DNA of 11,884 bases. It comes from Thermodesulfobacteriota bacterium. Its GTDB lineage: Bacteria > Desulfobacterota > DSM-4660 > Desulfatiglandales > HGW-15. This document shows, one piece after another, positions 398 through 11,884 of this stretch (positions are counted from its first letter, which is position 1; each line of letters begins with the position of its first letter). Under the pieces are notes generated by a model. The model was given only the letters and a program-made list of their open reading frames with translations, did not search any database and was not told the origin of the DNA. The translations under genes were made by a program, and so were the position numbers. Location: contig JALOPA010000043.1 in NCBI GenBank assembly GCA_025454125.1, positions 1 through 11,884 on the forward strand, read 5' to 3'.

Positions 398-1360
398 ATG
401 AAAGTGAAAACCGTAGCAACTTTGATCTTCGCGGCCATCCTGGGGCTGACAGTGTCGGCGCAGACCTATGCAGCTTTTCCGGAAAAACCGATCACGATCA
501 TCGTCGGTGCAGCGGCCGGCGGCTCGACCGACATGACCGCCAGAATGCTCGCCAAGCAGCTGACGGAAATCCTGAAGGTCCCCGTGGTGGTGGAGAACAA
601 AACCGGAGCAGGTGGATTTATCGCCGGAACGGCAGTCAACTCAGCCGCACCGGACGGTTACACCGTGAACGTGTACCCGAGCAGCGCCTTTAATCTGGCC
701 CACTTTCTGCGAAAGCCTCCTTATGATGTTTTCAAGCAGACTCCCATCGCGTCCTACGGAATCTACCCTTTCACGTTTGCCGTGAAGGCCGATTCTAAAT
801 GGAAGACGTTCAAGGAGTTTCTGGATCATGTGAAAGCGAATCCCGGACAAGTGTCTTTGTCTACCTCCAACCCCGATTCGATGGAAAACCTGCCCATCTG
901 GATGCTGGAAGAAAAGCTGGGCCTCAAGATGAAGCTTGTCCCCTATCAGGGTGGGGCGCCCGCTGTCGCAGCTGTGCTCGGCGGCCATGCAGATGCTTTC
1001 ACTGGTGTGGGAGAAGCGATTCCGCACATCCGAGACGGCAGCATGCGAGGCCTTGCCACCTACCTGGGCGTCCGGATGCCCGGCCTTCCGGATCTTCCAA
1101 CTCTCAAAGAGCTTGGATATGACGTTGTGGTGGAATCCAGACTCGCCGTCTATGGGCCGCCGGGTGTTCCAAAGGATGTGGTGAAGATCCTTCAGGATGC
1201 CTTCCAAAAGGCAATGGACAACGAGGATTTTAAGAAGATATGCCTCTCCTTTGAGGTGACTCCCTCTTTCCTGAGCAGCGAAGCGACCGATAAATACCAT
1301 CGGGATCTGGCCGCCAAGACAAAACCGATTTTGCTTAAGCTCGGCAAGATCAAGGACTGA
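398..1360 (+). CDS. TctC-family periplasmic carboxylate-binding protein (TTT transporter / Bug family)
   Basis: The product is 320 residues, the usual size for this family. The ATG at 398 is chosen because it follows an AAGGAGAAG ribosome site (about 386-394) and begins a typical Sec signal peptide: MKVK, a hydrophobic core (residues 5-21), and a probable cleavage after AYA (residues 23-25). The frame is open further upstream to 278, but that part overlaps the permease gene and encodes charged residues. The mature protein starts AFPEKPITIIVGAAAGGSTD, with the family's glycine-rich ligand loop, the TDMTARMLA helix, VVVENKTGAGG and APDGYT. These are hallmarks of TctC/Bug solute-binding proteins, which capture di-/tricarboxylates, aromatic acids or other small acids in the periplasm and pass them to TctA. 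The ligand cannot be read from sequence. Position behind a TctA gene and ahead of an enolase-superfamily gene suggests it feeds the pathway encoded here. Confidence 0.93.
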   Translation: MKVKTVATLIFAAILGLTVSAQTYAAFPEKPITIIVGAAAGGSTDMTARMLAKQLTEILKVPVVVENKTGAGGFIAGTAVNSAAPDGYTVNVYPSSAFNLAHFLRKPPYDVFKQTPIASYGIYPFTFAVKADSKWKTFKEFLDHVKANPGQVSLSTSNPDSMENLPIWMLEEKLGLKMKLVPYQGGAPAVAAVLGGHADAFTGVGEAIPHIRDGSMRGLATYLGVRMPGLPDLPTLKELGYDVVVESRLAVYGPPGVPKDVVKILQDAFQKAMDNEDFKKICLSFEVTPSFLSSEATDKYHRDLAAKTKPILLKLGKIKD

Positions 1361-1378
1361 GATACGGATGAAGGAGAA

Positions 1379-1403
1379 GGCTCGGCGTTAGCCGTTTTTC
1401 TTT
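1379..1403 (+). terminator. Possible Rho-independent terminator after the binding-protein gene
   Basis: Nineteen bases after the TctC stop, CGGC-GTTA-GCCG (1383-1394) forms a small perfect hairpin followed at once by TTTTTCTTT. An alternative pairing, GGCT with AGCC (1379-1393), overlaps it. The stem is short, so strength is uncertain, but stem plus T-run in this position fits a terminator separating the transporter from the next gene. Confidence 0.4.
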
Positions 1404-1429
1404 AAGCCACTGCGGTCTGCGCATAGTCT

Positions 1430-1443
1430 TTGCATGTATGCAA
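1430..1443. promoter_or_regulatory. Palindrome upstream of the mandelate racemase-type gene, possible operator
   Basis: TTGCAT-GT-ATGCAA is a perfect inverted repeat with 6-bp arms and a 2-bp centre, about 90 bp before the ATG at 1531. Its size and symmetry resemble sites bound by dimeric repressors of the GntR type, which often control carboxylate catabolism genes. No such regulator gene is in the window, so the role is inferred from symmetry and position only. Confidence 0.35.
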
Positions 1444-1530
1444 GTCAGCCGTTAAACGATGTCACGATCTCTTTCGGGAGCCGGAGAGCTTTCGGCGTTG
1501 AATGGATCGTGAACTTTTGAGGTAGTGAAA

Positions 1531-2685
1531 ATGAAGATTGCAGAGATAGAACTGGTAAACGTAAATATCCCACTCGCAGCTTCCAACCTTCCAAAGCCGG
1601 TTGGCCGGAATTATGGCTGTTACATGCTGGTGCGGGTAAAATGCGATAACGGGCTGGAGGGAATCGGAGAAGGGTATTATGGGAATTCGGCGAGCGCCAT
1701 CGCTGCGGTGATTAAGGATGCGCTTGCTCCGGATCTCATCGGTCAGGATGCGACCAATGTAGCAGGGCTATATGAGCGCATGTATCGCGCGGGTTTTTAT
1801 TCGGGACGTGTGGGCATCTATTTTTATGCCCTGAGCGCCGTAGAAATGGCCCTGTGGGATATCGTCGGAAAACATTACGGAGCACCCGTGCACGCTCTTC
1901 TCGGCGGGGTTGCCAAGAGAACCGTGGCCCCGTATCCTTCCTTGCGTGCCCTGGCAAGCGAGAAGGAAGATGATACCATCCCCGTCTATGCCAGCATGCA
2001 GACGTATCGGACGCCGGAGGAAGTGGGTATTGTGGCTGAAGCGGCGGCGAGGGCCGGGTTCAGGTCGGTGAAGCTGCATCAGGTGGATATCGAATCCGTC
2101 AAAATGGCGCGCGAAGCGGTGGGCGATGATGTCGAAATTACCATGGATGTGAACGGCTTTTTTAACACTCTGGAAGCGGAAAGGTTCGCAAACGAATTGG
2201 CGGAATACGACGTAGGGTGGTTTGAAGAGCCGATCTGGCCGCCGGACGATTATCGTGCGTTGGCTCAGCTTCGCTTGCGTTCCCCGGTCCCGATCGCCAG
2301 CGGAGAAAATGAGTCCACGATCTATGGCTTTGAACGGATGTTCGAAGCCGATTGCGTGGACATTCTCCAGCCTGAAGTCCTGGCGGCCGGAGGGATACTC
2401 GAATCGACCAAGGTCTACTCTCTTGCCCAGGCGCGAAACATCCCCATTGCGCCGCACAACTTCAAGTTCGGCCCGGTCTGCGCGGCGACCATCCATTTGA
2501 GCCTTTTATTTTCAAATGTCATCACCACGGAAACTCCCTGGTTCAAGCTGGAAGCGGATATCTTGAAAAAGGGACCTGTCATTTCTAACGGCCGTGCAAG
2601 ACTCGCCGATTTGCCCGGGCTGGGAATCGAGGTTGATGAAGACGTGGTCAGAGAGTATCGAATTGAGAAATTTCCACGGAAATAG
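1531..2685 (+). CDS. Mandelate racemase/muconate lactonizing enzyme family protein (MR-type, enolase superfamily)
   Basis: The 384-residue product has the enolase-superfamily layout: an N-terminal capping domain (about 1-125, ending ALWDIVGKHYG...LLGG) and a TIM barrel. The Mg2+ ligands are visible as D206 (MDVNG), E232 (WFEEP) and E259 (SGEN). H309 in IAPHN is the general base expected in the mandelate racemase subgroup. The second-strand motif, usually KxK, is K181-L-H183 here, and the acid that normally pairs with the histidine (QPD) is glutamate (Q280-P-E282). Family members abstract the proton alpha to a carboxylate, giving racemization or dehydration of hydroxy acids; which reaction applies here is unknown. 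The ATG at 1531 is preferred over the in-frame GTG at 1525 because the TGAGG site (1518-1522) is 8 bp from the ATG but only 2 bp from the GTG. It lies after a TTT transporter, a common arrangement for sugar-acid or hydroxy-acid catabolism. Confidence 0.92.
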   Translation: MKIAEIELVNVNIPLAASNLPKPVGRNYGCYMLVRVKCDNGLEGIGEGYYGNSASAIAAVIKDALAPDLIGQDATNVAGLYERMYRAGFYSGRVGIYFYALSAVEMALWDIVGKHYGAPVHALLGGVAKRTVAPYPSLRALASEKEDDTIPVYASMQTYRTPEEVGIVAEAAARAGFRSVKLHQVDIESVKMAREAVGDDVEITMDVNGFFNTLEAERFANELAEYDVGWFEEPIWPPDDYRALAQLRLRSPVPIASGENESTIYGFERMFEADCVDILQPEVLAAGGILESTKVYSLAQARNIPIAPHNFKFGPVCAATIHLSLLFSNVITTETPWFKLEADILKKGPVISNGRARLADLPGLGIEVDEDVVREYRIEKFPRK

Positions 2686-2694
2686 TGCTCTCAG

Positions 2695-2730
2695 CTGTTC
2701 CTCTCCCCCGCAAGCGAGGGAGAGGAACAG
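2695..2730. terminator. Strong hairpin between convergent genes; probable bidirectional terminator or dispersed palindromic repeat
   Basis: CTGTTCCTCTCCC (2695-2707) and GGGAGAGGAACAG (2718-2730) are perfect 13-bp complementary arms around a 10-base loop CCGCAAGCGA that can itself form a CGC/GCG mini-stem. It sits in the 50-bp gap between the plus-strand MR-type gene (stop at 2685) and the minus-strand crotonase gene (stop at 2736), where a two-way terminator is expected. Neither side has a long T-run. The CTCTCCC...GGGAGAG core resembles dispersed intergenic palindromes seen in many proteobacterial genomes, so it may be a member of such a repeat family. Confidence 0.65.
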
Positions 2731-2735
2731 AATTG

Positions 2736-3527
2736 CTATTTGCCCTTAAAATTCGGCTTCCGCTTTTCCATAAACGCCTGAATGCCTTCCCTGGCATCCC
2801 AGGTGGTCTTGATGAAGTCAGACGCTTCCGCCTCATGCCTGCAAGCCGCCTCGTAACCCTCGAAAAGGGTTTTCCGCACCCCTTGCTTTAACCGCTCAAT
2901 CGCGAGAGGAGCCGCTGAACAAATGCGATTCGCAATTTCCATCGCCTCATCCATGAGCTTCTCGGGTGGCACGACTTTGCTCACCAGTCCGTATTCCTTA
3001 CCCTTTTCCGCCGGAAACCACTCTCCCAGGAGAAGAATTTCCAGCGCGTTCCTCCGACCTATCCATCGGGCCAGACGAACCATCCCTACACTCCAACTGG
3101 GGACCATCCCGAGATATGCATCCCTGGCTCCGAATCTGGCCCGATCCGTTGCGATCACAAAGTCACAGGGCCAGGCGAGGCCGGTGCCTCCGCCGGCGCA
3201 ATAACCATCCACGGCCGCGATCACCGGTTGCGGCAGAGATTCAATAAGGCCGACGCATTTCCGCCCCATTTCTCGGAACAGGTTGCTTGCATTCGCTTGA
3301 TCAAAAGCCTCCTCGTCACCCATGTCCGCCCCCGCGCAGAATGCCCTTTGTCCTGAGCCGGTTAGAATCACGGCTCGAATCGATCGATCTTGTGCGGTCG
3401 ATTGAAGCTCTTCCAGCAGCCGCCTCAGCATCGCGGGGTTCACGATGTTCAAGGGCGGACGGTTGAGCGTGATAATTTTTACCATCTCTTTTCGTTCGAC
3501 AAGAATAGGCGGGCTTTCGGTCGTCAT
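2736..3527 (-). CDS. Crotonase (enoyl-CoA hydratase/isomerase) superfamily protein with altered active site
   Basis: The 263-residue product has the crotonase fold signature: ITLNRPPLNIVN near residues 19-30, oxyanion-hole segments FCAGADM (63-69) and GYCAGGGTGLA (108-118), then FGARDAYLGMVPSW (132-145) and the C-terminal lid with AAPLAIERLKQGV. Family members bind acyl-CoA thioesters and stabilise an enolate. The two glutamates that make hydratases active (E144 and E164 in rat mitochondrial enoyl-CoA hydratase) align with G116 and D136, so simple enoyl-CoA hydration is doubtful; an isomerase, hydrolase or ring-cleaving role is possible. ATG at 3527 is chosen because GGAGG (3540-3536) lies 8 bp upstream; an in-frame TTG at 3542 overlaps this site. 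It is 45 bp downstream of the flavin reductase gene on the same strand and is probably cotranscribed with it. Confidence 0.92.
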   Translation of the reverse strand: MTTESPPILVERKEMVKIITLNRPPLNIVNPAMLRRLLEELQSTAQDRSIRAVILTGSGQRAFCAGADMGDEEAFDQANASNLFREMGRKCVGLIESLPQPVIAAVDGYCAGGGTGLAWPCDFVIATDRARFGARDAYLGMVPSWSVGMVRLARWIGRRNALEILLLGEWFPAEKGKEYGLVSKVVPPEKLMDEAMEIANRICSAAPLAIERLKQGVRKTLFEGYEAACRHEAEASDFIKTTWDAREGIQAFMEKRKPNFKGK

Positions 3528-3572
3528 CGTCCAATCCTCCAACCAGGTTTATTGATTAGCAGTCGGGCGAAT

Positions 3573-5519
3573 TCAAATTCTGAGGGAAAGCCGAAAGCCT
3601 TCCCAAATGGCATGCTGGATGTTTCGAGGCTTCACACAGTCTCCAATGGCATGAACCGGGAACGAGGCATCCTGCAACCCGTCAAGCAGCCGTCGATCAG
3701 GCTCGAAACCGGTTGCGGCGACGAGAAAAGAGGTCCTGATCTGCTGAACCCCTTCCGGACTTCTTGCCAGAACACCGTCTTCAACGATCTCCAGAACCGT
3801 TGTGCTTGTCATGATCCGAACGCCGGCCTCGAAGAGCAGTTGGCTCAACGCGTGTTTAGTGATTGAAAAGATGCCGACCATCAGATGAGGCAGCGATTCA
3901 ACGATTACGACTTCCTTCCCCGTCTTTGACAACCAAAGGGCGGTTTCGCACCCGACGAGACCTCCTCCGAGAACCACAGCACTGTCTCCGGGTGCCTCCC
4001 GGCCTTTGAGCAAATCAACCGCGTCGGAGAAACAAATTTTCTCCAATCCCCGTAACTTCGGAATAGCGGGCCGTGCGCCAGTTGCGATGACCACTTCGTC
4101 GACGTGCTCTTTCAACACCTGATCCGGCGTGGCTTCCTTGTTGAGTACGACCCGGACGTTCAAAGATTCCATTTGATGCGAAAAATAAGAAATGAGCGTT
4201 TTAACGTCAGCTTTGAATGAAGGCGTGGACGCAGGAATGAGGTTGCCTCCGAGATGCGGCTCTTTTTCCCACAGAACTACCCTATGCCCTCTCAGAGCCG
4301 CAACCCTGGCCGCTTCCATACCTGCCGGTCCGGAGCCGACAACGAGCAAGGATTTTTTATCCGAAGCCGGTTTTATCGAAAACTCCCTTTCCATTCCCGT
4401 TTGAGGGTTTACGCTGCAGCTGAGGGTTTTCCCCGCCACGATGCGGCCAAGGCAGCCGTCGTAATCCCCGATACACGGCCTGATGGCGGAGATTGCGTTC
4501 TTTTTGACCTTGATCGGCCACTCCGGATCTGCCAACAACGCTCGCCCCAGTGCAATAAAGTCTGCTTCGCCCTCCGCAAGGACCCTCTCTGCGAGATCGG
4601 GATAGCCCAATCGTCCGACTGCAATAACCGGGATCGTCACCCTTTTTTTTATCGATGAGGCGCAATCCACGGTGCATCCCCGATCCATATAGACAGGGGG
4701 ATGGGCCCAGTGTTTGGCTTCGCTGCACCCTGCATCAATGTGCAGGCAATCGACTCCGGCTTCTTCGAATTTTCGCGCAATCGCGATCGACTCCTCGATA
4801 TGCCGTCCGTCTTCAACGTGATGCCTCCCTGCCATACGAAAGATCAGAGGAAACTGGCCGCCTACGGCGCGTCGCACTGAAGCGATGATTTCCAGAGGAA
4901 ACCGAAGCCGTCCCTCTAGATCACCGCCGTACCCGTCTTTGCGCTTGTTCCATTTAGCGGTCATGAACTGATCGATCAGATAGCCCTCATGACCGTGCAA
5001 TTCGATCGCGTCAAATCCCGCCTGCTTCACAATCAAGGCGGCTGCAACAAAGGCCTTCGTCAGTTTTACGATCTCTTCGATCGTAAGTTCGCGGGCCAGC
5101 ACGGAAGGATCGCTTGAACAAGGTTGGGCCGACGGCGCGACGGCCCAGCCCGCTTGAACGACCTCGGGTCTCGCCAAGCGTCCGTATCCTGCGGTGAGCT
5201 GCGCGGCTATTTTCGCCCCATGGTCCTGGACAGCCTCCGCAAGCTCGTTCAGGCGCGGAATGTAGAGGGTCGAATCGGCCCTGGCCAAGGGGCTCCACGG
5301 GCCGCGATCCCTTTTTTCCACTTCCGTTTCAATCGCCATCAGTCCGGTAATAATCAGACCGGCGCCGCCTCTCGCACGGGCCACGTAGTAATCGACGGCG
5401 CGCTGGGAGAAGCGACCGTCGAGTTCGATCAAACCGCGAGCCCCCATGGGAGCCATCACAATTCTGTTTTTCAGCTCAAGGGTGTTTATTTTTCCTGGTC
5501 TAAACAAGAAAGAAACCAT
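3573..5519 (-). CDS. NADH:flavin oxidoreductase / 2,4-dienoyl-CoA reductase-like enoate reductase
   Basis: The 648-residue product has the three-part layout of 2,4-dienoyl-CoA reductase (FadH), BaiCD/BaiH and 2-enoate reductases. An old-yellow-enzyme FMN barrel (about 1-340) has KNRIVMAPM, and ELHGHEGYLIDQF carries H175 and the candidate proton donor Y180. An iron-sulfur linker follows at 349-368. Then comes a Rossmann region with GSGPAG (395-400) for FAD, GGGLVGCE (518-525) for NAD(P)H, and ATGFEPD with AIGDC near the end. Such enzymes pass electrons from NAD(P)H through FAD and a 4Fe-4S cluster to FMN and reduce C=C bonds of enoates or dienoyl-CoAs in the cytoplasm. In the C-x2-C-x3-C-x11-C cluster motif the second position is aspartate (C349, D352, C356, C368). 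The frame stays open upstream to 6002 over the divergent gene; ATG at 5519 starts the conserved domain and follows AAGGA by 4 bp. First gene of the minus-strand operon. Confidence 0.93.
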   Translation of the reverse strand: MVSFLFRPGKINTLELKNRIVMAPMGARGLIELDGRFSQRAVDYYVARARGGAGLIITGLMAIETEVEKRDRGPWSPLARADSTLYIPRLNELAEAVQDHGAKIAAQLTAGYGRLARPEVVQAGWAVAPSAQPCSSDPSVLARELTIEEIVKLTKAFVAAALIVKQAGFDAIELHGHEGYLIDQFMTAKWNKRKDGYGGDLEGRLRFPLEIIASVRRAVGGQFPLIFRMAGRHHVEDGRHIEESIAIARKFEEAGVDCLHIDAGCSEAKHWAHPPVYMDRGCTVDCASSIKKRVTIPVIAVGRLGYPDLAERVLAEGEADFIALGRALLADPEWPIKVKKNAISAIRPCIGDYDGCLGRIVAGKTLSCSVNPQTGMEREFSIKPASDKKSLLVVGSGPAGMEAARVAALRGHRVVLWEKEPHLGGNLIPASTPSFKADVKTLISYFSHQMESLNVRVVLNKEATPDQVLKEHVDEVVIATGARPAIPKLRGLEKICFSDAVDLLKGREAPGDSAVVLGGGLVGCETALWLSKTGKEVVIVESLPHLMVGIFSITKHALSQLLFEAGVRIMTSTTVLEIVEDGVLARSPEGVQQIRTSFLVAATGFEPDRRLLDGLQDASFPVHAIGDCVKPRNIQHAIWEGFRLSLRI

Positions 5520-5658
5520 GGCATCCTTTACAACTTCCCGATAGAAACGTCCAGAAAGATTCCTTCCTCGGCCTGACACATCGACGCTCTCCCCCCGGCC
5601 TATTTCCCTCTCGCTTTTCCCGGGGAAGTTCTGTATAGGGAAATGATATGCGGAGAGA

Positions 5659-5672
5659 TTACGGTGACGTAA
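5659..5672. promoter_or_regulatory. Palindrome in the divergent intergenic region, possible shared operator
   Basis: TTACG-GTGA-CGTAA is an inverted repeat with perfect 5-bp arms, in the 204-bp gap between the minus-strand reductase (start 5519) and the plus-strand enolase-superfamily gene (start 5724). GGTGA also recurs directly as GGTGA-CGTAA-GGTGA (5663-5677). A divergent gap is a usual place for a shared control site. I see no convincing -35/-10 pair on either strand here, so this is a candidate from symmetry and position only. Confidence 0.3.
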
Positions 5673-5723
5673 GGTGAAGGAATTGCATTTATTCTTCGAC
5701 ACCGGAGAACCGGAGGAGACGCG

Positions 5724-6863
5724 ATGAAAATAACAAGGATAGAAATACTGCCTGTAAGCATCCCCATTCAATCCCCCAAGAGAGTTGCTTTCGGTCTTTT
5801 CGACATGCGTGCCTATGTATTTGTAAAGGTATATACGGATGAAGGCATTGTCGGCGTCGGAGAGACATCGCCCTGGATACCCGAGACAAGGGAATCTCAG
5901 GAGGACATCATTCCTCTCATTGAAAAGTGGCTTGGCCCTGCCATCATCGGAGAGGATCCGTTCGAAATCCAAAGTATCTGGAAAATCATGGAAAGAATAC
6001 ACGGCAGAGTCGCCGCCAAAGGGGCTATCGATATAGCCCTTTACGATATTTTGGGAAAGGCGCTAGGTCTGCCGATTTACCGACTGCTCGGAGGTCCGTG
6101 CTTCAAGAGACTTCCCCTGGCGAGTATTGTCGGCCTCGATGAACCGGAAAAGATGGCGGAGGACGCCCTCTCCCAGATCAAGGCCTATAACGTGAAGGGG
6201 CTGCGCCTCAAGCTCGGGTCAACAATCAGAGAGGATGAGGCCCGGTTCAAGGCCGTCAGGGAAGCTGTCGGGACGGCGATGTCCATAAGAATAGATTTGA
6301 ATGGGCACTACAATTCCTCCGATGCCATAACGTTGGTCAAACGCCTCGAGGATTATGACTTGACTCTCGTGGAGCAACCCGTCCCGTGGCATGATATTCA
6401 AGGACTCAAGAGGGTGAACGAGCGCGTGGACACTCTGGTTCAACCCGATGAATCCTATTACACTTGCTGGGATCTATCCCATTTAATGGTGATGGGAGCT
6501 GCAAGCGTACTCGGCTTGAAGATGGTCCGACCCGGAGGGTTCACCAGCAACAAGAAAGTCATCGACATGGCGGAACTGCTCAATATCCCCTGCTACATCA
6601 ATTCAGCGGGAGAAATGGGAGTGGCGAAGGCGGCGGCGCTGCATTTTGCGTTTCACCATAACAATATCAAGTTTCCGTGTGAAATCAACGTCTATCGGGA
6701 AAGCGAAGAGGATATGATCGTGGAAACCTTTGAAACAGAAGATGGCTATGCCTTGGCTCCGAAGGGTCCGGGGCTTGGAGTCACGCTTGATGAGAAGCGT
6801 CTTCACAAATTCCTGGGTGAAGTAAAAGTCTGTTCAGAGAAAAGAGCGATTGTTAATCTTTAA
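5724..6863 (+). CDS. Muconate lactonizing enzyme-type member of the enolase superfamily
   Basis: The 379-residue product has the capping domain (1-125, with EGIVGVGETSPW and DIALYDILGKALG...LLGG) and a TIM barrel. Catalytic candidates are K163 in the second-strand motif (R161-L-K163, an arginine replacing the first lysine of the usual KxK), metal ligands D191 (IDLNG), E217 (LVEQP) and D242 (QPDES), and K266 in LGLKMVRPGG on the opposite face. Lysine bases on both faces are the mark of the muconate lactonizing/dipeptide epimerase/o-succinylbenzoate synthase subgroup, unlike the histidine-based enzyme at 1531-2685. The reaction could be cycloisomerization, epimerization or racemization; the substrate is unknown. 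Start is clear: GGAGG (5712-5716) lies 7 bp before the ATG. It is transcribed away from the reductase gene and is probably part of the same pathway. Confidence 0.92.
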   Translation: MKITRIEILPVSIPIQSPKRVAFGLFDMRAYVFVKVYTDEGIVGVGETSPWIPETRESQEDIIPLIEKWLGPAIIGEDPFEIQSIWKIMERIHGRVAAKGAIDIALYDILGKALGLPIYRLLGGPCFKRLPLASIVGLDEPEKMAEDALSQIKAYNVKGLRLKLGSTIREDEARFKAVREAVGTAMSIRIDLNGHYNSSDAITLVKRLEDYDLTLVEQPVPWHDIQGLKRVNERVDTLVQPDESYYTCWDLSHLMVMGAASVLGLKMVRPGGFTSNKKVIDMAELLNIPCYINSAGEMGVAKAAALHFAFHHNNIKFPCEINVYRESEEDMIVETFETEDGYALAPKGPGLGVTLDEKRLHKFLGEVKVCSEKRAIVNL

Positions 6864-6929: not shown

Positions 6930-6955
6930 TTGTAACCTCAGTCCGAAGGGCAGTG

Positions 6956-7522
6956 ATGAAAGAAGAACTTCAACGGCGCATCCGGTTGTACCGAAAAGAA
7001 CGCGGCCTCACCGTTCGGCAACTTGCCGAGAGGGCGGGTTGCACCCATTCCTACATTTCCCAGATAGAAAAGGGAACGACCGCTCCTTCCTTGTCCATGG
7101 TGGGTAAGCTTGCCGCTGCACTTGGGATCAACGTGGTCGAGCTCTTCAATGAGCCCCCCAACGGCCACGACGCCGATTATTATCTTGCAAGAAACGAACG
7201 AAAGACGATCAACTACCCTGACGGGAAAGTGTCGAGCCAACTTCTGGTTTCGCGAATTGCGACGAAAAAGATGGAGCCCCTGGTGAGCGCGATCCAGCCC
7301 GGGGGATCTTCGGATGAAGCGGAAAAAATGGTTCATCCTCCCGGGACCGAGGAGTTCGTCCTGGTGCTCAAGGGGGAAATCGAGTTCAAGGTGAACGGCA
7401 AGGCAATGCGCCTCAGGGAGGGGGATACCCTGAGCTTCGACGGCACGTTGCCTCACCGCTGGGAGAACAGAACCAAAAAGAAGGCGGAGGCGTTGTTCGT
7501 CTTCAGCCCGCCTATCTGGTAA
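6956..7522 (+). CDS. XRE-family transcriptional regulator with C-terminal cupin sensor domain
   Basis: The 188-residue product has an N-terminal helix-turn-helix (about 6-62; LTVRQLAERAGCTHSYISQIEKG is the core) and a C-terminal cupin_2 barrel (about 105-185; HPPGTEEFVLVLKGEIEF, then REGDTLSFDGTLPHRWEN). HTH-cupin proteins of this size usually repress or activate a neighbouring catabolic or stress operon in answer to a small ligand or metal bound in the cupin. Candidate cupin residues are H127, E132/E133 and H167. ATG at 6956 follows GAAGGG (6945-6950) by 5 bp; an in-frame GTG at 6953 is too close to that site. It has its own promoter and ends 23 bp before the Mo-hydroxylase large subunit with no terminator visible, so it may be cotranscribed with and control that operon. 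Confidence 0.9.
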   Translation: MKEELQRRIRLYRKERGLTVRQLAERAGCTHSYISQIEKGTTAPSLSMVGKLAAALGINVVELFNEPPNGHDADYYLARNERKTINYPDGKVSSQLLVSRIATKKMEPLVSAIQPGGSSDEAEKMVHPPGTEEFVLVLKGEIEFKVNGKAMRLREGDTLSFDGTLPHRWENRTKKKAEALFVFSPPIW

Positions 7523-7545
7523 GCAATCAAGACATGGAGCAGGGT

Positions 7546-9903
7546 ATGGAAACAAGAAATCACTTCAGTGTCGGCAAGGTGGCGCGACGGAAGGACGGCG
7601 TCGCCAAGGTGACGGGCAAGGAGATCTATTCCTCCGACGTCTCTTTTCCCAACATGCTTCACGCCAGGGTCCTGAGAAGCCCTTACCCCCACGCGAAGAT
7701 CCTGTCCGTGGACACCTCGGAAGCGGAAAAAATGGGTGTGGTATGCATCGCCTACAAGGACATTCCCAAGGCCCGCTACAACGAGCGCCAGGTCAGCATT
7801 CCCGAGAAAACCTACCGGGACCGAACGGTCCTGCCCGACCGCGTGAGACACGTGGGGGAAGGCGTCGCCGCGGTGGCGGCAAAGACAGAGGCTTTGGCTG
7901 AAAAAGCCATGCGATCCATCAAGGTGGAGTACGAGATCCTGCCGGCCGTCTTCGATCCCTTTGAGGCCATGAAAGAGGGAGCTCCCCGGCTCTACGAGGA
8001 TGTGATGCTAGGAGAGGTCAAGCTTCCCATAGAGAGAAACATTGCCTGCGCCAGGGAGGTGAGCGAAGGGAATGTGGAGGAGGGTTTCAAAGAAGCGGAC
8101 CTCATCGTTGAAGACGTCTTCACCACGGGCCGGGTTTACCATCAGCAAATGGAAACAAAGTCAGTGGTGTGTCGACCGGAACCGGACGGCGGCATCACGG
8201 TCTGGCCCACGGCCCAGTCCATTCACAATACCCGCCAGCTTCTCGGGCGCATTTTCAACATCCCTTTGAGCAAGGTCAACGTGCACCGGGTCCCCATCGG
8301 CGGGGCATTCGGGTCCAGCATTCAGATGAACACGCCCATCGCCATCTGCGTGGCCCTCGCCCTGAAGGCGCGGAAGCCCGTGAAGCTGAGCCTCACCCGG
8401 GAAGAAGACATGTACGATCACTGCAAGTACCCGTCCTGGATTCGCCTGAAGTACGGGGTCAAGAAGGACGGGACCATCACCGCAGGCGAGATGCAAACCG
8501 TGGTCGACATCGGCGGCCACAATATCCAGGCCTATCCCCTGCTGGGGTGCATGGCAGGGTGGTTTGTCTCCCTCTATCGCATGCCCCACCTGAGCGTGCG
8601 GGGAACCGCGGTCTACACCAACAAGGCGCCCGCCTGCGCCATGCAGGGGTACGGCAATCCCCAGGTTTCCTTTGCGGTGGAATCCATGATGGACATGATC
8701 GCGGAAAAACTGGGCCTGGATCCCATCGAGCTGCGGCTGAAGAACTACGTGGGCCTTGGGGAAACGTTCTGGGGCCAGGGTCCCACGGTCCGCTCCATCA
8801 TCCGGAGCTGCGGGGTGGAAGAGATGCTCCTCAAAGGCCGGGACATGATCGGATGGGACCGGCGGGGAAAACCTGAAGAGAGGAGCGGGCGATATCGTCG
8901 CGGAATCGGCGTTGGCCGGAGCTTTCACACCTCCGGCACAGGCGCCCCCATGCCCGGGGAGGTGATCGACTACTCCACGGCTCTGGTGAAGGTCAACGAA
9001 GACGGTTCCGTGGATTTCCTGACCGGCCTCATGTGCCACGGGGGGGGAACCCTGGAGGCATGCGCAAAGATCGTGGCAGAGGTGATGGGGGTGCCCCTGG
9101 AAAAGGTCGGCATTTCCCCCTCCAACACACTGAGCACGGGCTACGATGTGTGCACCCACGCTACAAGAGGGGTTTACTGTGGCGGGGCGGCCGTTAAGAA
9201 AGCAGCGGAATCGGCCAAGAGGATTCTCCTTGGGTTCGCTTCCAGGCTGATCGAGGTGAACCCCGACGCACTCCAGATCCGTCCGGATTCTGAATCCGGC
9301 CAAGGGGTCATCTTTCTGGAGGGCGCCAAGGGGAAATCCATCACCGTGGGAGAGACGGCAAAAACCGCTCAGATCAAGGGCTGGGGAACGGCCATTGCCG
9401 TGGAAAGCCACAGACAGGTCAACTGCCCTCCCTGCTTCGTCACCAATTTCATCGAGGTGGAAGTGGACACGGACACCGGAGAGGTCAGGCCTACCAGGGC
9501 CGTGGCGGCGGTAGACGCCGGGACGGTGATGAACCCGGATCTAACGGCGGGTCAGCTTGAGGGCGGGCTGTGTCGAGGGATCGCTTTGGCCCTGCTGGAA
9601 GGCACGGAATATGACGGACGTACGGGGAGGCTCACCTGCGGCGCAAGCATGGTGGACTACAAGATTTATACGGCCGTCGACATGCCCCACGTGGAAAAGG
9701 TGCAGACTTTTTTTGCAAACACCTATGAACCGTCCGGGCCTTTCGGTGCAAAAGGGGTGGGGGAGGCGGCCAACAACTGCACGGCAGGCGCCGTGGCCAA
9801 CGCCCTTTACAATGCCGTGGGCATTCGCTTCAAGGATGCGCCCATCACGCCGGAAAAGGTTCTTAAAGCCCTGAAGGAAAAAGCCGCCGGGGAAAGGGGG
9901 TGA
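7546..9903 (+). CDS. Molybdopterin-binding large subunit of a xanthine oxidase-family hydroxylase
   Basis: The 785-residue product has the two conserved domains of the family: the a/b hammerhead domain (about 16-135, from DGVAKVTG) and the molybdopterin-binding domain (about 155-775). Cofactor motifs are GGAFGSS (252-258), QGYGNPQ (367-373), a glycine-rich HGGGTLEA (498-505) and GAKGVGE (734-740), where E740 is the expected catalytic base. These enzymes hydroxylate aromatic heterocycles, aldehydes or CoA-linked aromatics with oxygen from water, passing electrons to 2Fe-2S and FAD subunits, encoded next door. The glutamate that contacts purines in xanthine dehydrogenase (bovine E802) aligns with I259, and the FRGFG arginine is Q367, so the substrate is probably not xanthine. 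ATG at 7546 follows GGAG (7536-7539) by 6 bp; the in-frame ATG at 7534 has no ribosome site. First gene of the Mo-hydroxylase operon. Confidence 0.93.
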   Translation: METRNHFSVGKVARRKDGVAKVTGKEIYSSDVSFPNMLHARVLRSPYPHAKILSVDTSEAEKMGVVCIAYKDIPKARYNERQVSIPEKTYRDRTVLPDRVRHVGEGVAAVAAKTEALAEKAMRSIKVEYEILPAVFDPFEAMKEGAPRLYEDVMLGEVKLPIERNIACAREVSEGNVEEGFKEADLIVEDVFTTGRVYHQQMETKSVVCRPEPDGGITVWPTAQSIHNTRQLLGRIFNIPLSKVNVHRVPIGGAFGSSIQMNTPIAICVALALKARKPVKLSLTREEDMYDHCKYPSWIRLKYGVKKDGTITAGEMQTVVDIGGHNIQAYPLLGCMAGWFVSLYRMPHLSVRGTAVYTNKAPACAMQGYGNPQVSFAVESMMDMIAEKLGLDPIELRLKNYVGLGETFWGQGPTVRSIIRSCGVEEMLLKGRDMIGWDRRGKPEERSGRYRRGIGVGRSFHTSGTGAPMPGEVIDYSTALVKVNEDGSVDFLTGLMCHGGGTLEACAKIVAEVMGVPLEKVGISPSNTLSTGYDVCTHATRGVYCGGAAVKKAAESAKRILLGFASRLIEVNPDALQIRPDSESGQGVIFLEGAKGKSITVGETAKTAQIKGWGTAIAVESHRQVNCPPCFVTNFIEVEVDTDTGEVRPTRAVAAVDAGTVMNPDLTAGQLEGGLCRGIALALLEGTEYDGRTGRLTCGASMVDYKIYTAVDMPHVEKVQTFFANTYEPSGPFGAKGVGEAANNCTAGAVANALYNAVGIRFKDAPITPEKVLKALKEKAAGERG

Positions 9904-9907
9904 TCAA

Positions 9908-10063
9908 ATGGTCGATACAAGGATCCTAGCACACGAATTCGATTTCACGGCACCGAAGGGTCTTGCCGAAGTCCTTGATCTGCTGAAACGCTATGGCTCC
10001 AAGGCCAAGATCATGGCAGGAGGCACGGACCTGCTGGTCCAGATGAAGATGGAGAAGGTTTGA
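9908..10063 (+). CDS. FAD-binding (middle) subunit of the Mo-hydroxylase, N-terminal piece of a split gene
   Basis: A 51-residue frame starts at ATG 9908, 7 bp after an AAAGGGGG ribosome site and 4 bp after the large subunit's stop. It contains the start of a CoxM/XdhB-type FAD domain: FTAPKGLAEVLDLLKRYG and the FAD-pyrophosphate loop MAGGTDLLVQMK (36-47). It ends at TGA 10061-10063 because of a perfect 17-bp tandem duplication. Removing one copy joins this frame to the following one and gives a continuous 295-residue protein, the normal size for this subunit. So this is the broken or split first part of the gene, not an independent gene. Whether the short peptide is stable or assembles with the second piece is unknown. 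Confidence 0.8.
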   Translation: MVDTRILAHEFDFTAPKGLAEVLDLLKRYGSKAKIMAGGTDLLVQMKMEKV

Positions 10064-10077
10064 AGATGGAGAAGGTT
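10044..10077 (+). repeat. Perfect 17-bp tandem duplication inside the first FAD-subunit gene
   Basis: TGAAGATGGAGAAGGTT occurs twice in a row (10044-10060 and 10061-10077) with no mismatch; the flanking bases differ, so the unit is exactly 17 bp. As 17 is not a multiple of three, the second copy shifts the frame and its first three bases read as a TGA stop. The joined protein without one copy reads QMKMEKVTPEV across the site, matching the family. Confidence 0.95.
10051..10058 (+). promoter_or_regulatory. Ribosome binding site created by the duplication
   Basis: GGAGAAGG in the first repeat copy lies 7 bp before the ATG at 10066 in the second copy. The stop codon at 10061-10063 sits between them, giving an arrangement well suited to translational restart of the second piece of the FAD subunit. 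In the ancestral sequence these bases would have been ordinary coding sequence. Confidence 0.5.
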
Positions 10078-10812
10078 ACTCCGGAGGTCATCATTAACGT
10101 CATGAAGATCACGGAGCTGGACTACATCAACGAGGAGGGCGGCCTGCGCATGGGTGCGACGACCAAACTGAGCACGATCAGGGATTACTGCGCGAAGGAA
10201 AGAAGATACGCTGCCCTCTACGAAGCCATCTCCGTGCTGGGGAAACCCCAGGTGTGGAACATGGGCACCATCGCGGGCAACCTCTGCAACGCCTCGCCTT
10301 CTGCGGACACGGCACCGCCTCTCCTGGTCTACAACGGCCGCGTGAAACTGCTGGGCATGAGCGGCGAAAGGACCCTGGGACTGGAGGAGTTTTTCAAAGG
10401 GGTGAATCGAACCGCCCTCAGGGAGGGCGAACTCCTGGTGGAGATCCAGACGGAGAAGATATCGGAGCGCACGGGAAGCGCGTTCATGAAGATGGCGAGA
10501 GTGGGCGCCGATATCTCGAAAGTCACCTGCGCCGTGGCCGTGGAAAGGGAGGGAGACCGTTGCCTGTCCTGCCGCATTGCCCTTGGCGCGGTGGCGCCGG
10601 TTCCCATGAGGGCAAAGGCTGCGGAAAACCTCATCCGGGGAACCGAGGTGGATGAAGGGGTCATCGAAAAAGCAGGCCTGCAGGTGGCGCAAGAAATCAG
10701 GCCGATTGACGATGTGCGATCAACGGTCGAGTACCGGAGAGACGTGGCGAAGTCCCTGTTCAAAGACGCGTTTTCAAAGGCGTGGCGAGGGGCTGCAGGA
10801 GAAGAAGCATGA
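10066..10812 (+). CDS. FAD-binding (middle) subunit of the Mo-hydroxylase, C-terminal piece of a split gene
   Basis: From ATG 10066 this frame gives 248 residues; it is open six bases further, to a TTG at 10060. It carries the rest of the CoxM/XdhB-type FAD subunit: GAISVLG-like helix AISVLGKPQVWN, the second FAD loop MGTIAGNLCNASPSADTAPP (about 67-86), FFKGVNRTALREGELL, and the C-terminal CO_deh_flav_C domain (from about 141) ending in VEYRRDVAKSLFKDAF. The subunit moves electrons from the 2Fe-2S clusters to an acceptor. The missing first 51 residues, with the AGGTDLL loop, are encoded in the preceding frame and separated by a 17-bp duplication. Restart at 10066 is plausible because GGAGAAGG is ideally placed. 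The stop overlaps the next ATG (ATGA at 10809-10812), so the operon remains coupled. It may be a recent pseudogene, a split functional gene, or an assembly error. Confidence 0.85.
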   Translation: MEKVTPEVIINVMKITELDYINEEGGLRMGATTKLSTIRDYCAKERRYAALYEAISVLGKPQVWNMGTIAGNLCNASPSADTAPPLLVYNGRVKLLGMSGERTLGLEEFFKGVNRTALREGELLVEIQTEKISERTGSAFMKMARVGADISKVTCAVAVEREGDRCLSCRIALGAVAPVPMRAKAAENLIRGTEVDEGVIEKAGLQVAQEIRPIDDVRSTVEYRRDVAKSLFKDAFSKAWRGAAGEEA

Positions 10813-11273
10813 GAAAGGAAAAAGTGAGCTTTACCGTGAACGGAGAAGAGCACGAGCTGTTCGTGGAATCCAACGCCCTCTTGCTGAGCGTGCTGAGAGA
10901 CGAGCTGGGGCTGACAGGAGCCAAGTACGCCTGCGGTGTCGGACAGTGTGGAGGATGCACGGTCCTCATGAATGGAGAGGCGGTGTTGAGCTGTCTCGTC
11001 CTTGCCGTGGCTGCGAACGGTGCGGAAATTCAGACCGTCGAAGGCCTGGTCAAGCCCGACGGGACGCTCGATCCTCTCCAGGAAGCGTTCCTCGACCACA
11101 GTGCGATCCAGTGCGGGTTTTGCACGCCGGGGATGGTCATGATCAGCAAGGATCTTCTCAACAGGAATCCTTCCCCGAACGAAAAGGAGATCCGGGAACA
11201 CATCCGGGGCAACCTCTGCCGGTGCACTGGGTACAACAGCATTGTGCGGGCCGTCAAGAGCTGCACAAAATAG
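10809..11273 (+). CDS. 2Fe-2S small subunit of the xanthine oxidase-family hydroxylase
   Basis: The 154-residue product has the standard two-domain structure. The N-terminal plant-ferredoxin-like domain has CGVGQCGGC (residues 39-47) plus a fourth cysteine in LSC. The C-terminal four-helix domain has CGFCTPGM and CRCTGY, whose four cysteines hold the second 2Fe-2S cluster near the Mo cofactor. All eight cluster cysteines are present, so the subunit looks functional. It relays electrons from molybdenum to FAD. The ATG overlaps the preceding stop (ATGA) and AGGAG (10797-10801) lies 7 bp upstream, pointing to translational coupling with the FAD-subunit piece before it. It belongs to the operon starting at 7546. 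Confidence 0.95.
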   Translation: MRKEKVSFTVNGEEHELFVESNALLLSVLRDELGLTGAKYACGVGQCGGCTVLMNGEAVLSCLVLAVAANGAEIQTVEGLVKPDGTLDPLQEAFLDHSAIQCGFCTPGMVMISKDLLNRNPSPNEKEIREHIRGNLCRCTGYNSIVRAVKSCTK

Positions 11274-11284
11274 GGAGTAAAGCG

Positions 11285-11884
11285 ATGATCCACATGGAAT
11301 ACGTGGCGCCGAAAACGCTTGAAGAGTTTTTCAAGGAGTTGGAAGGCAAGGCAGGGCAGGTCAAGTTTGCGGCAGGATGCACCAATGTCATCCCCGACCT
11401 CCGGGCCCGGGCGGTGTCGCCGAAATTCCTGGTGAACCTGCAGGGGTTGGAAGGCATGGCCGGGATCGAGGAGGAAAAGGAGGCCGTTTCCATCGGGGCA
11501 CTCACCACCATGACCGAGCTCGCCGCATCCGGCATCATCAAAAAATGGGCTCCTTCACTGGCTTCAGCGGCACTCCAAATGGGAAATCCCCTGGTCAGAA
11601 ACCGCGCCACCCTGGGCGGTAATCTCGCCGACGCCTCTCCGGCCGCCGATTCGGCGCCGCCCCTTCTTTCCCTTGAAGCGGTGATCCATACGGTGCAGGC
11701 CGACGGGGCGAAAAGACAGATCCCTGTGGAACGTTTTTTTGCTGGGCCGAATCGAACGGTCCTGGCCGGGGAGGAGCTTATCAGGAGGGTGACCTTTCCG
11801 AAGCCGAAGGATCCTTCAAAGAGCGCCTACATCAAGCTCGGTCTGCGGAATGCTTCGGCCATTTCCGTGGTGAGCATCGCCCTC
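11285..11884 (+). CDS. Second FAD-binding (middle) subunit of a Mo-hydroxylase, C-terminus beyond the window
   Basis: The frame is open for 200 codons from ATG 11285 to the last base of the window. GGGAG (11273-11277) is 7 bp upstream, and the gap from the 2Fe-2S gene's stop is only 11 bp. The product starts MIHMEYVAPKTLEEF and has the first FAD loop FAAGCTNVIPDLR (about 28-40), VSIGALTTMTEL, the second FAD loop RNRATLGGNLADASPAADSAP, and FFAGPNRTVLAGEEL. It is a full CoxM/XdhB-type FAD domain and a diverged paralogue of the broken subunit at 9908-10812, sharing the NASPSADTAPPLL/DASPAADSAPPLL and FF-G-NRT patterns. In the first loop it has AGCTN where the first copy has AGGTD. It could replace the broken copy in the same enzyme, or be the first gene of a second Mo-hydroxylase continuing downstream. 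Confidence 0.9.
   Translation, partial: MIHMEYVAPKTLEEFFKELEGKAGQVKFAAGCTNVIPDLRARAVSPKFLVNLQGLEGMAGIEEEKEAVSIGALTTMTELAASGIIKKWAPSLASAALQMGNPLVRNRATLGGNLADASPAADSAPPLLSLEAVIHTVQADGAKRQIPVERFFAGPNRTVLAGEELIRRVTFPKPKDPSKSAYIKLGLRNASAISVVSIAL

Follow-up and report, generated by a model that had tools for sequence, protein, structure and literature searches.

What became of the FAD-subunit gene that carries an exact 17-bp tandem duplication in this bacterial contig, and does the duplication represent a true mutation, an error of assembly, a way of making one subunit as two chains or an on/off switch? The question is raised by an 11,884-nucleotide stretch of DNA assigned to Thermodesulfobacteriota (contig JALOPA010000043.1), hereafter the window, in which two identical copies of the unit TGAAGATGGAGAAGGTT stand head to tail, the first at 10044-10060 and the second at 10061-10077 (plus strand, as are the subunit genes and sites described below). 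The run of identity between the copies is exactly 17 bases long, so the repeat does not continue beyond the unit at either border. It is the sole exact tandem repeat with a unit of at least 8 bases in the window, and since the largest tandem unit seen in dinucleotide shuffles of the window was 9 (n = 30), a unit of 17 is not a chance outcome of base composition. When the unit was searched for on both strands with up to three mismatches, only the two adjacent sites were found, against 0.03 expected, and exact tandem repeats with units of 10-99 bases were absent from 71,428 bases of sequence covering 13 loci, some of which overlap one another. The perfect duplication at 10044-10077 reported in the original prediction is therefore present, with both copies exact and adjacent, and the sequence as deposited does carry the split that it causes.

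The frame that opens at ATG 9908 runs for 51 codons before it meets a new in-frame TGA at 10061-10063, created by the duplication as had been proposed, and this yields a 51-residue N-terminal piece (9908-10063). The downstream frame is open from TTG 10060 or ATG 10066 to 10812, and from the ATG would encode a C-terminal piece of 248 residues (10066-10812). Judged by its domains, the gene at 9908 is the FAD subunit of a molybdenum hydroxylase of the xanthine dehydrogenase family: both FAD_binding_5 and CO_deh_flav_C are present, the latter in the C-terminal piece, and the Pfam FAD_binding_5 domain is divided over the two frames, with positions 2-41 in the N-terminal piece (27.1 bits, with a cut-off of 27) and positions 41-166 in the C-terminal piece. 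The break also separates two conserved motifs, AGGTD (codons 10016-10030) and TIAGN (codons 10267-10281), which we take to be the FAD-binding loops known from CO dehydrogenase structures. Residues A37, G38, G39 and D41 of the first motif and T115, G118 and N119 of the second are invariant in an alignment of 65 sequences. Because AGGTD precedes the stop and TIAGN follows it, a single chain with both FAD motifs is absent here. Programmed frameshifting and stop read-through were considered as ways around the stop and rejected: frame 0 after TGA 10061 meets its next stop at 10103, and a -1 shift at GTT-TGA would, judging from the bases around it, lack a slippery heptamer.

Relatives of the subunit were taken from a search of 5.77 billion protein sequences clustered at 90% identity, in which 5781 sequences cleared the threshold and the top 120 of them were used. 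Among these best 120 of 5781, an unbroken frame free of insertions crosses the site in 115 (105 recognised by a simple pattern with identical spacing, and a further 10 by eye, with the same spacing and substitutions in the pattern), while five start downstream of the AGG motif; of the 34 rows in this set that are at least 75% identical, 31 span the site unbroken and the other three begin downstream. The closest relative of the C-terminal piece among the matches listed, P0001, is an intact protein of 295 residues with the junction QMKMEKVTPEV, and its one-copy state is read from protein sequence only. Its residues 1-51 are identical to the N-terminal piece, and it matches the C-terminal piece with 98% identity by BLASTP and 97% over the full alignment (7 differences in 248). 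Both the length and the junction that removal of one copy had been predicted to restore are thus found in an intact relative. Of the genomes with DNA that were found, the best share about 60% identity with the C-terminal piece, and the one-copy state is accordingly seen in proteins and in distant DNA. Since clustering was at 90% identity, with P0001 standing for 11 sequences, broken members inside a cluster would be hidden.

Two of the five relatives that start downstream begin right at the site, namely P0104 (250 aa, on a 1366-bp contig) and P0114 (247 aa, on a 924-bp contig). The first 25 residues of P0114 are the same as those of the intact P0117, which makes truncation by the contig end likely, with the protein data leaving a break possible, and both proteins may have been cut in this way. 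Another short relative, P0031 (211 aa, on a 736-bp contig), has a first few residues that are off-family and a remainder that matches, so that its start looks as if it had been cut or fused to other sequence. With the 51-residue piece as query, no candidate for a second copy of the allele was found among proteins of its size range, where short N-terminal fragments may simply lack gene predictions. The 34-mer comprising both copies had no match in viral_contigs, and 9600-11884 had no near match in plasmids. Within the order of the nearest genome, one of the 150 matches listed had an internal stop and none began after residue 18 of P0001, in a tally made by hand and in which a lone C-terminal piece would score lower. 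The single row with an internal stop is a related FAD subunit in another genome (G059:C49:15430-16293), with one TAA inside the match.

The broken gene lies in an operon whose order is large subunit, broken FAD subunit, [2Fe-2S] subunit and second FAD subunit. The large (molybdopterin) subunit gene (7534-9903, with a start that may be ATG 7546) and the [2Fe-2S] subunit gene (10809-11273) are intact by family profiles, and the ATG of the latter overlaps the stop of the FAD-subunit frame (ATGA, 10809-10812). The remaining genes wholly inside the window are likewise intact by family coverage. In two deltaproteobacterial MAG contigs, L001 and L002, the genes follow the same order, again behind a helix-turn-helix/cupin regulator; the FAD subunit is intact in both, with 60% and 59% identity over the C-terminal piece, respectively. 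In the window this regulator (6953-7522) lies immediately 5′ of the large-subunit gene, as it does in L001 and L002. NCBIfam models of several enzymes match the operon proteins, every one of them below its cut-off.

The second FAD-subunit gene (11285-11884), identified by Pfam FAD_binding_5 and with a counterpart at this position in both L001 and L002, adjoins the [2Fe-2S] gene, is divergent from the first and runs off the window. It is followed by a second [2Fe-2S] gene in L001, and by a second [2Fe-2S] gene and a second large-subunit gene in L002; these second subunit sets suggest that two related enzymes share one operon. The second FAD subunit might partly replace the broken one. Two different enzymes of the mandelate racemase/muconate-lactonizing type lie beside the operon (1531-2685 and 5724-6863), and the region 398-6863 also holds a tripartite tricarboxylate transporter receptor, an enoyl-CoA hydratase and an old-yellow-enzyme-type reductase, neighbours that suggest a catabolic cluster.

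Could the downstream piece still be made? The sequence GGAGAAGG lies at 10051-10058, 7 bases ahead of ATG 10066, just as the original prediction had it, and is a possible ribosome-binding sequence for restart. The ATG sits 2 bases past the new TGA in the frame of the downstream piece, and a TTG in the same frame (10060-10062) overlaps the stop (TTGA, a 4-nt overlap type). Both start codons lie inside the stop-to-start distance of -8 to +10 nt from TGA 10061-10063 that is taken as predictive for termination-reinitiation in the pertinent part of PMC10666635. Restart of the downstream piece could in principle take place, as far as the arrangement of these codons goes. The anti-Shine-Dalgarno duplex energy of ATG 10066 is -7.7 kcal/mol and that of TTG 10060 is -6.4; the native start reaches -17.3, and the starts of the [2Fe-2S] gene and the second FAD subunit have -7.4 and -8.5, respectively. 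A signal at least as strong as that of ATG 10066 was found at 21 of the 194 plus-strand ATGs scored, ATG 10066 included.

As a control, we scored every 17-bp duplication that could arise in six intact genes, 6,425 cases in all. A start codon in the correct frame close to the stop resulted in about 62%; in about 12% such a start had a signal at least as good as -7.7, and in about 1.6% it was an ATG with that signal (totals summed from rounded per-gene fractions, which vary widely, by gene 2-34% where any start is counted and 0-11.5% where it must be an ATG). Control duplications often make similar sites; the restart site is thus somewhat lucky, and selection is not needed to explain it. The proposal is borne out in that the new stop has correctly framed start codons next to it, while the case for a specially built site is weak, the signal being ordinary and similar ones arising in about 12% of controls. 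Were restart to fail, translational coupling to the [2Fe-2S] gene would presumably be lost as well.

We also considered where the break falls in the folded protein and whether the C-terminal piece has begun to decay. In a predicted model of P0001 (mean pLDDT 89), which resembles the flavoprotein subunits of CO dehydrogenase (TM about 0.9 to 1ffu_C), the break falls in a loop between helix 41-47 and strand 55-58, which on this model would be a mild place for a cut. When the C-terminal piece is modelled by itself, a fold is still predicted (pLDDT 89.5), with strand 55-58 missing; both models were built with alignments of about 65 relatives and so carry little information on stability. In a tree with 30 relatives, the end branch of the C-terminal piece measures 0.015 against 0.011 for its intact sister P0001, and the intact [2Fe-2S] protein, which is 99% identical to its nearest relative, has an end branch of 0 in a tree of its own. 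With so few changes (7 in 248), there is no clear decay or acceleration of the C-terminal piece relative to P0001. This lack would mean that the break is very young, that the protein still works or that the break is not real, and it suits an artefact and a still-working two-chain subunit equally.

Taken together, these data are best explained by a frame-breaking duplication of an ordinary kind or by an error of assembly. We put the chances at about even that the duplication is recent, private and real and that the FAD-subunit gene is impaired. On this account, a de novo head-to-tail duplication of 17 bp, which needed no prior repeat, would have broken the FAD-subunit frame in the sequenced cell line. 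Precedent comes from the part of PMC6954433 that describes, for a topA mutant of E. coli, de novo tandem duplications 2-19 bp long for which no repeat already present was required: that range covers a 17-bp event without homology at its borders, and the duplication seen here, an exact head-to-tail repeat of 17 bp with no flanking repeat, falls within it. Ribosomes would halt after residue 51, where the sequence places the stop, and some may restart at TTG 10060 or ATG 10066, which would maintain translation of the C-terminal piece and of the [2Fe-2S] gene that overlaps it. With two conserved FAD motifs now on different chains, the FAD subunit itself would most likely be lost or strongly impaired, and the restart site is probably an unselected by-product of the duplication. 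A considerable probability, short of even, attaches to an error of assembly or consensus, in which contig ends or strain variants sharing 17 bases were joined with the overlap left unmerged, or one aberrant read was followed, and the gene is whole in the organism. The repeat stops exactly at its unit borders, as an unmerged 17-base overlap probably would; a nearly identical intact protein is known, a short truncated relative was not found among proteins of that size range, and the C-terminal piece is without clear decay. In addition, many purported pseudogenes in bacterial assemblies are attributed to assembly errors in the relevant portion of PMC11017572. Against this, every other gene lying wholly inside the window is intact, so errors are not widespread in this sequence, and exact short tandem duplications are also documented as a real class of mutation in the part of PMC6954433 cited above.

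Two further readings would give the duplication a function. It is unlikely that the FAD subunit works as two chains, with termination-reinitiation yielding residues 48-295 and the FAD site being re-formed when these dock onto residues 1-51. The start codons at the stop (the TTGA overlap and the ATG at +2) are in the right frame, the -7.7 signal is close to those of the neighbouring subunit genes, the break is predicted to fall in a loop and the C-terminal piece shows no clear decay; P0104 and P0114, among the best 120 of 5781 relatives, begin at the site and could carry a break there. Set against these points, about 12% of the control duplications offer a similar restart (about 1.6% if an ATG is required), the site is crossed without a break in 115 of the best 120 of 5781 relatives, the short contigs that carry P0104 and P0114 may have truncated both at a contig end, and the duplication may be too young for missing decay to signal selection. 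The fuller claim, that one 17-bp duplication gave two co-translated chains sharing one FAD site, with the same mutation supplying stop, start and ribosome-binding sequence, we regard as quite unlikely. Very unlikely is a phase-variable switch, in which passage between one and two copies would toggle the enzyme on and off, as the original prediction had suggested. A perfect tandem repeat can lose one copy, which speaks for such a switch, as do the reversible frame-shifting indels reported for another bacterium, Mycobacterium tuberculosis, in the corresponding part of PMC8339072. However, known phase-variable genes carry short-unit tracts, unlike the two copies of a long unit found here, and an internal catabolic enzyme would, to our knowledge, be an unusual target. 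Also against a switch at this locus, none of the 115 site-spanning relatives (best 120 of 5781, 90% clusters) carries an insertion, and no short truncated relative was found in the size range searched; the suggestion gained no support here.

The locus serves mostly as a caution, since a single broken frame among intact operon genes is easily over-read as a switch. If the allele is real, and if both chains are made and assembled, it would provide a clean natural case of gene fission by one mutation with function kept.

As a mutation, the event, if real, would resemble the duplications of the E. coli topA R168C strain (as described in part of PMC6954433), which are head-to-tail, of 2-19 bp and independent of repeats, as is the 17-bp duplication in the window. 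The reversible indels of Mycobacterium tuberculosis (part of PMC8339072) likewise break a frame in a way that could later be undone, whereas the window locus is without sign of recurrence or restoration. Termination-reinitiation gene pairs, in the portions of PMC10666635 and PMC6728339 that concern them, have a stop and start that overlap or lie at most 2 nt apart and belong to one operon and one complex, features shared here; unlike those pairs, the pair in the window was made by mutation within one gene, and its coupling is putative. The gene itself shares FAD_binding_5 and CO_deh_flav_C with the FAD (medium) subunits of xanthine dehydrogenase and CO dehydrogenase (CutM 1ffv_C, CoxM 1n5w_C and glyceraldehyde oxidoreductase 4zoh_B), its intact relative P0001 shares the fold of the CO dehydrogenase FAD subunits, and the genes for the large and [2Fe-2S] subunits adjoin it as they do in the xanthine dehydrogenase family. 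Unlike in these known FAD subunits, the frame in the window is broken between the two conserved FAD motifs, at a site through which all five of the PDB chains aligned run without interruption.
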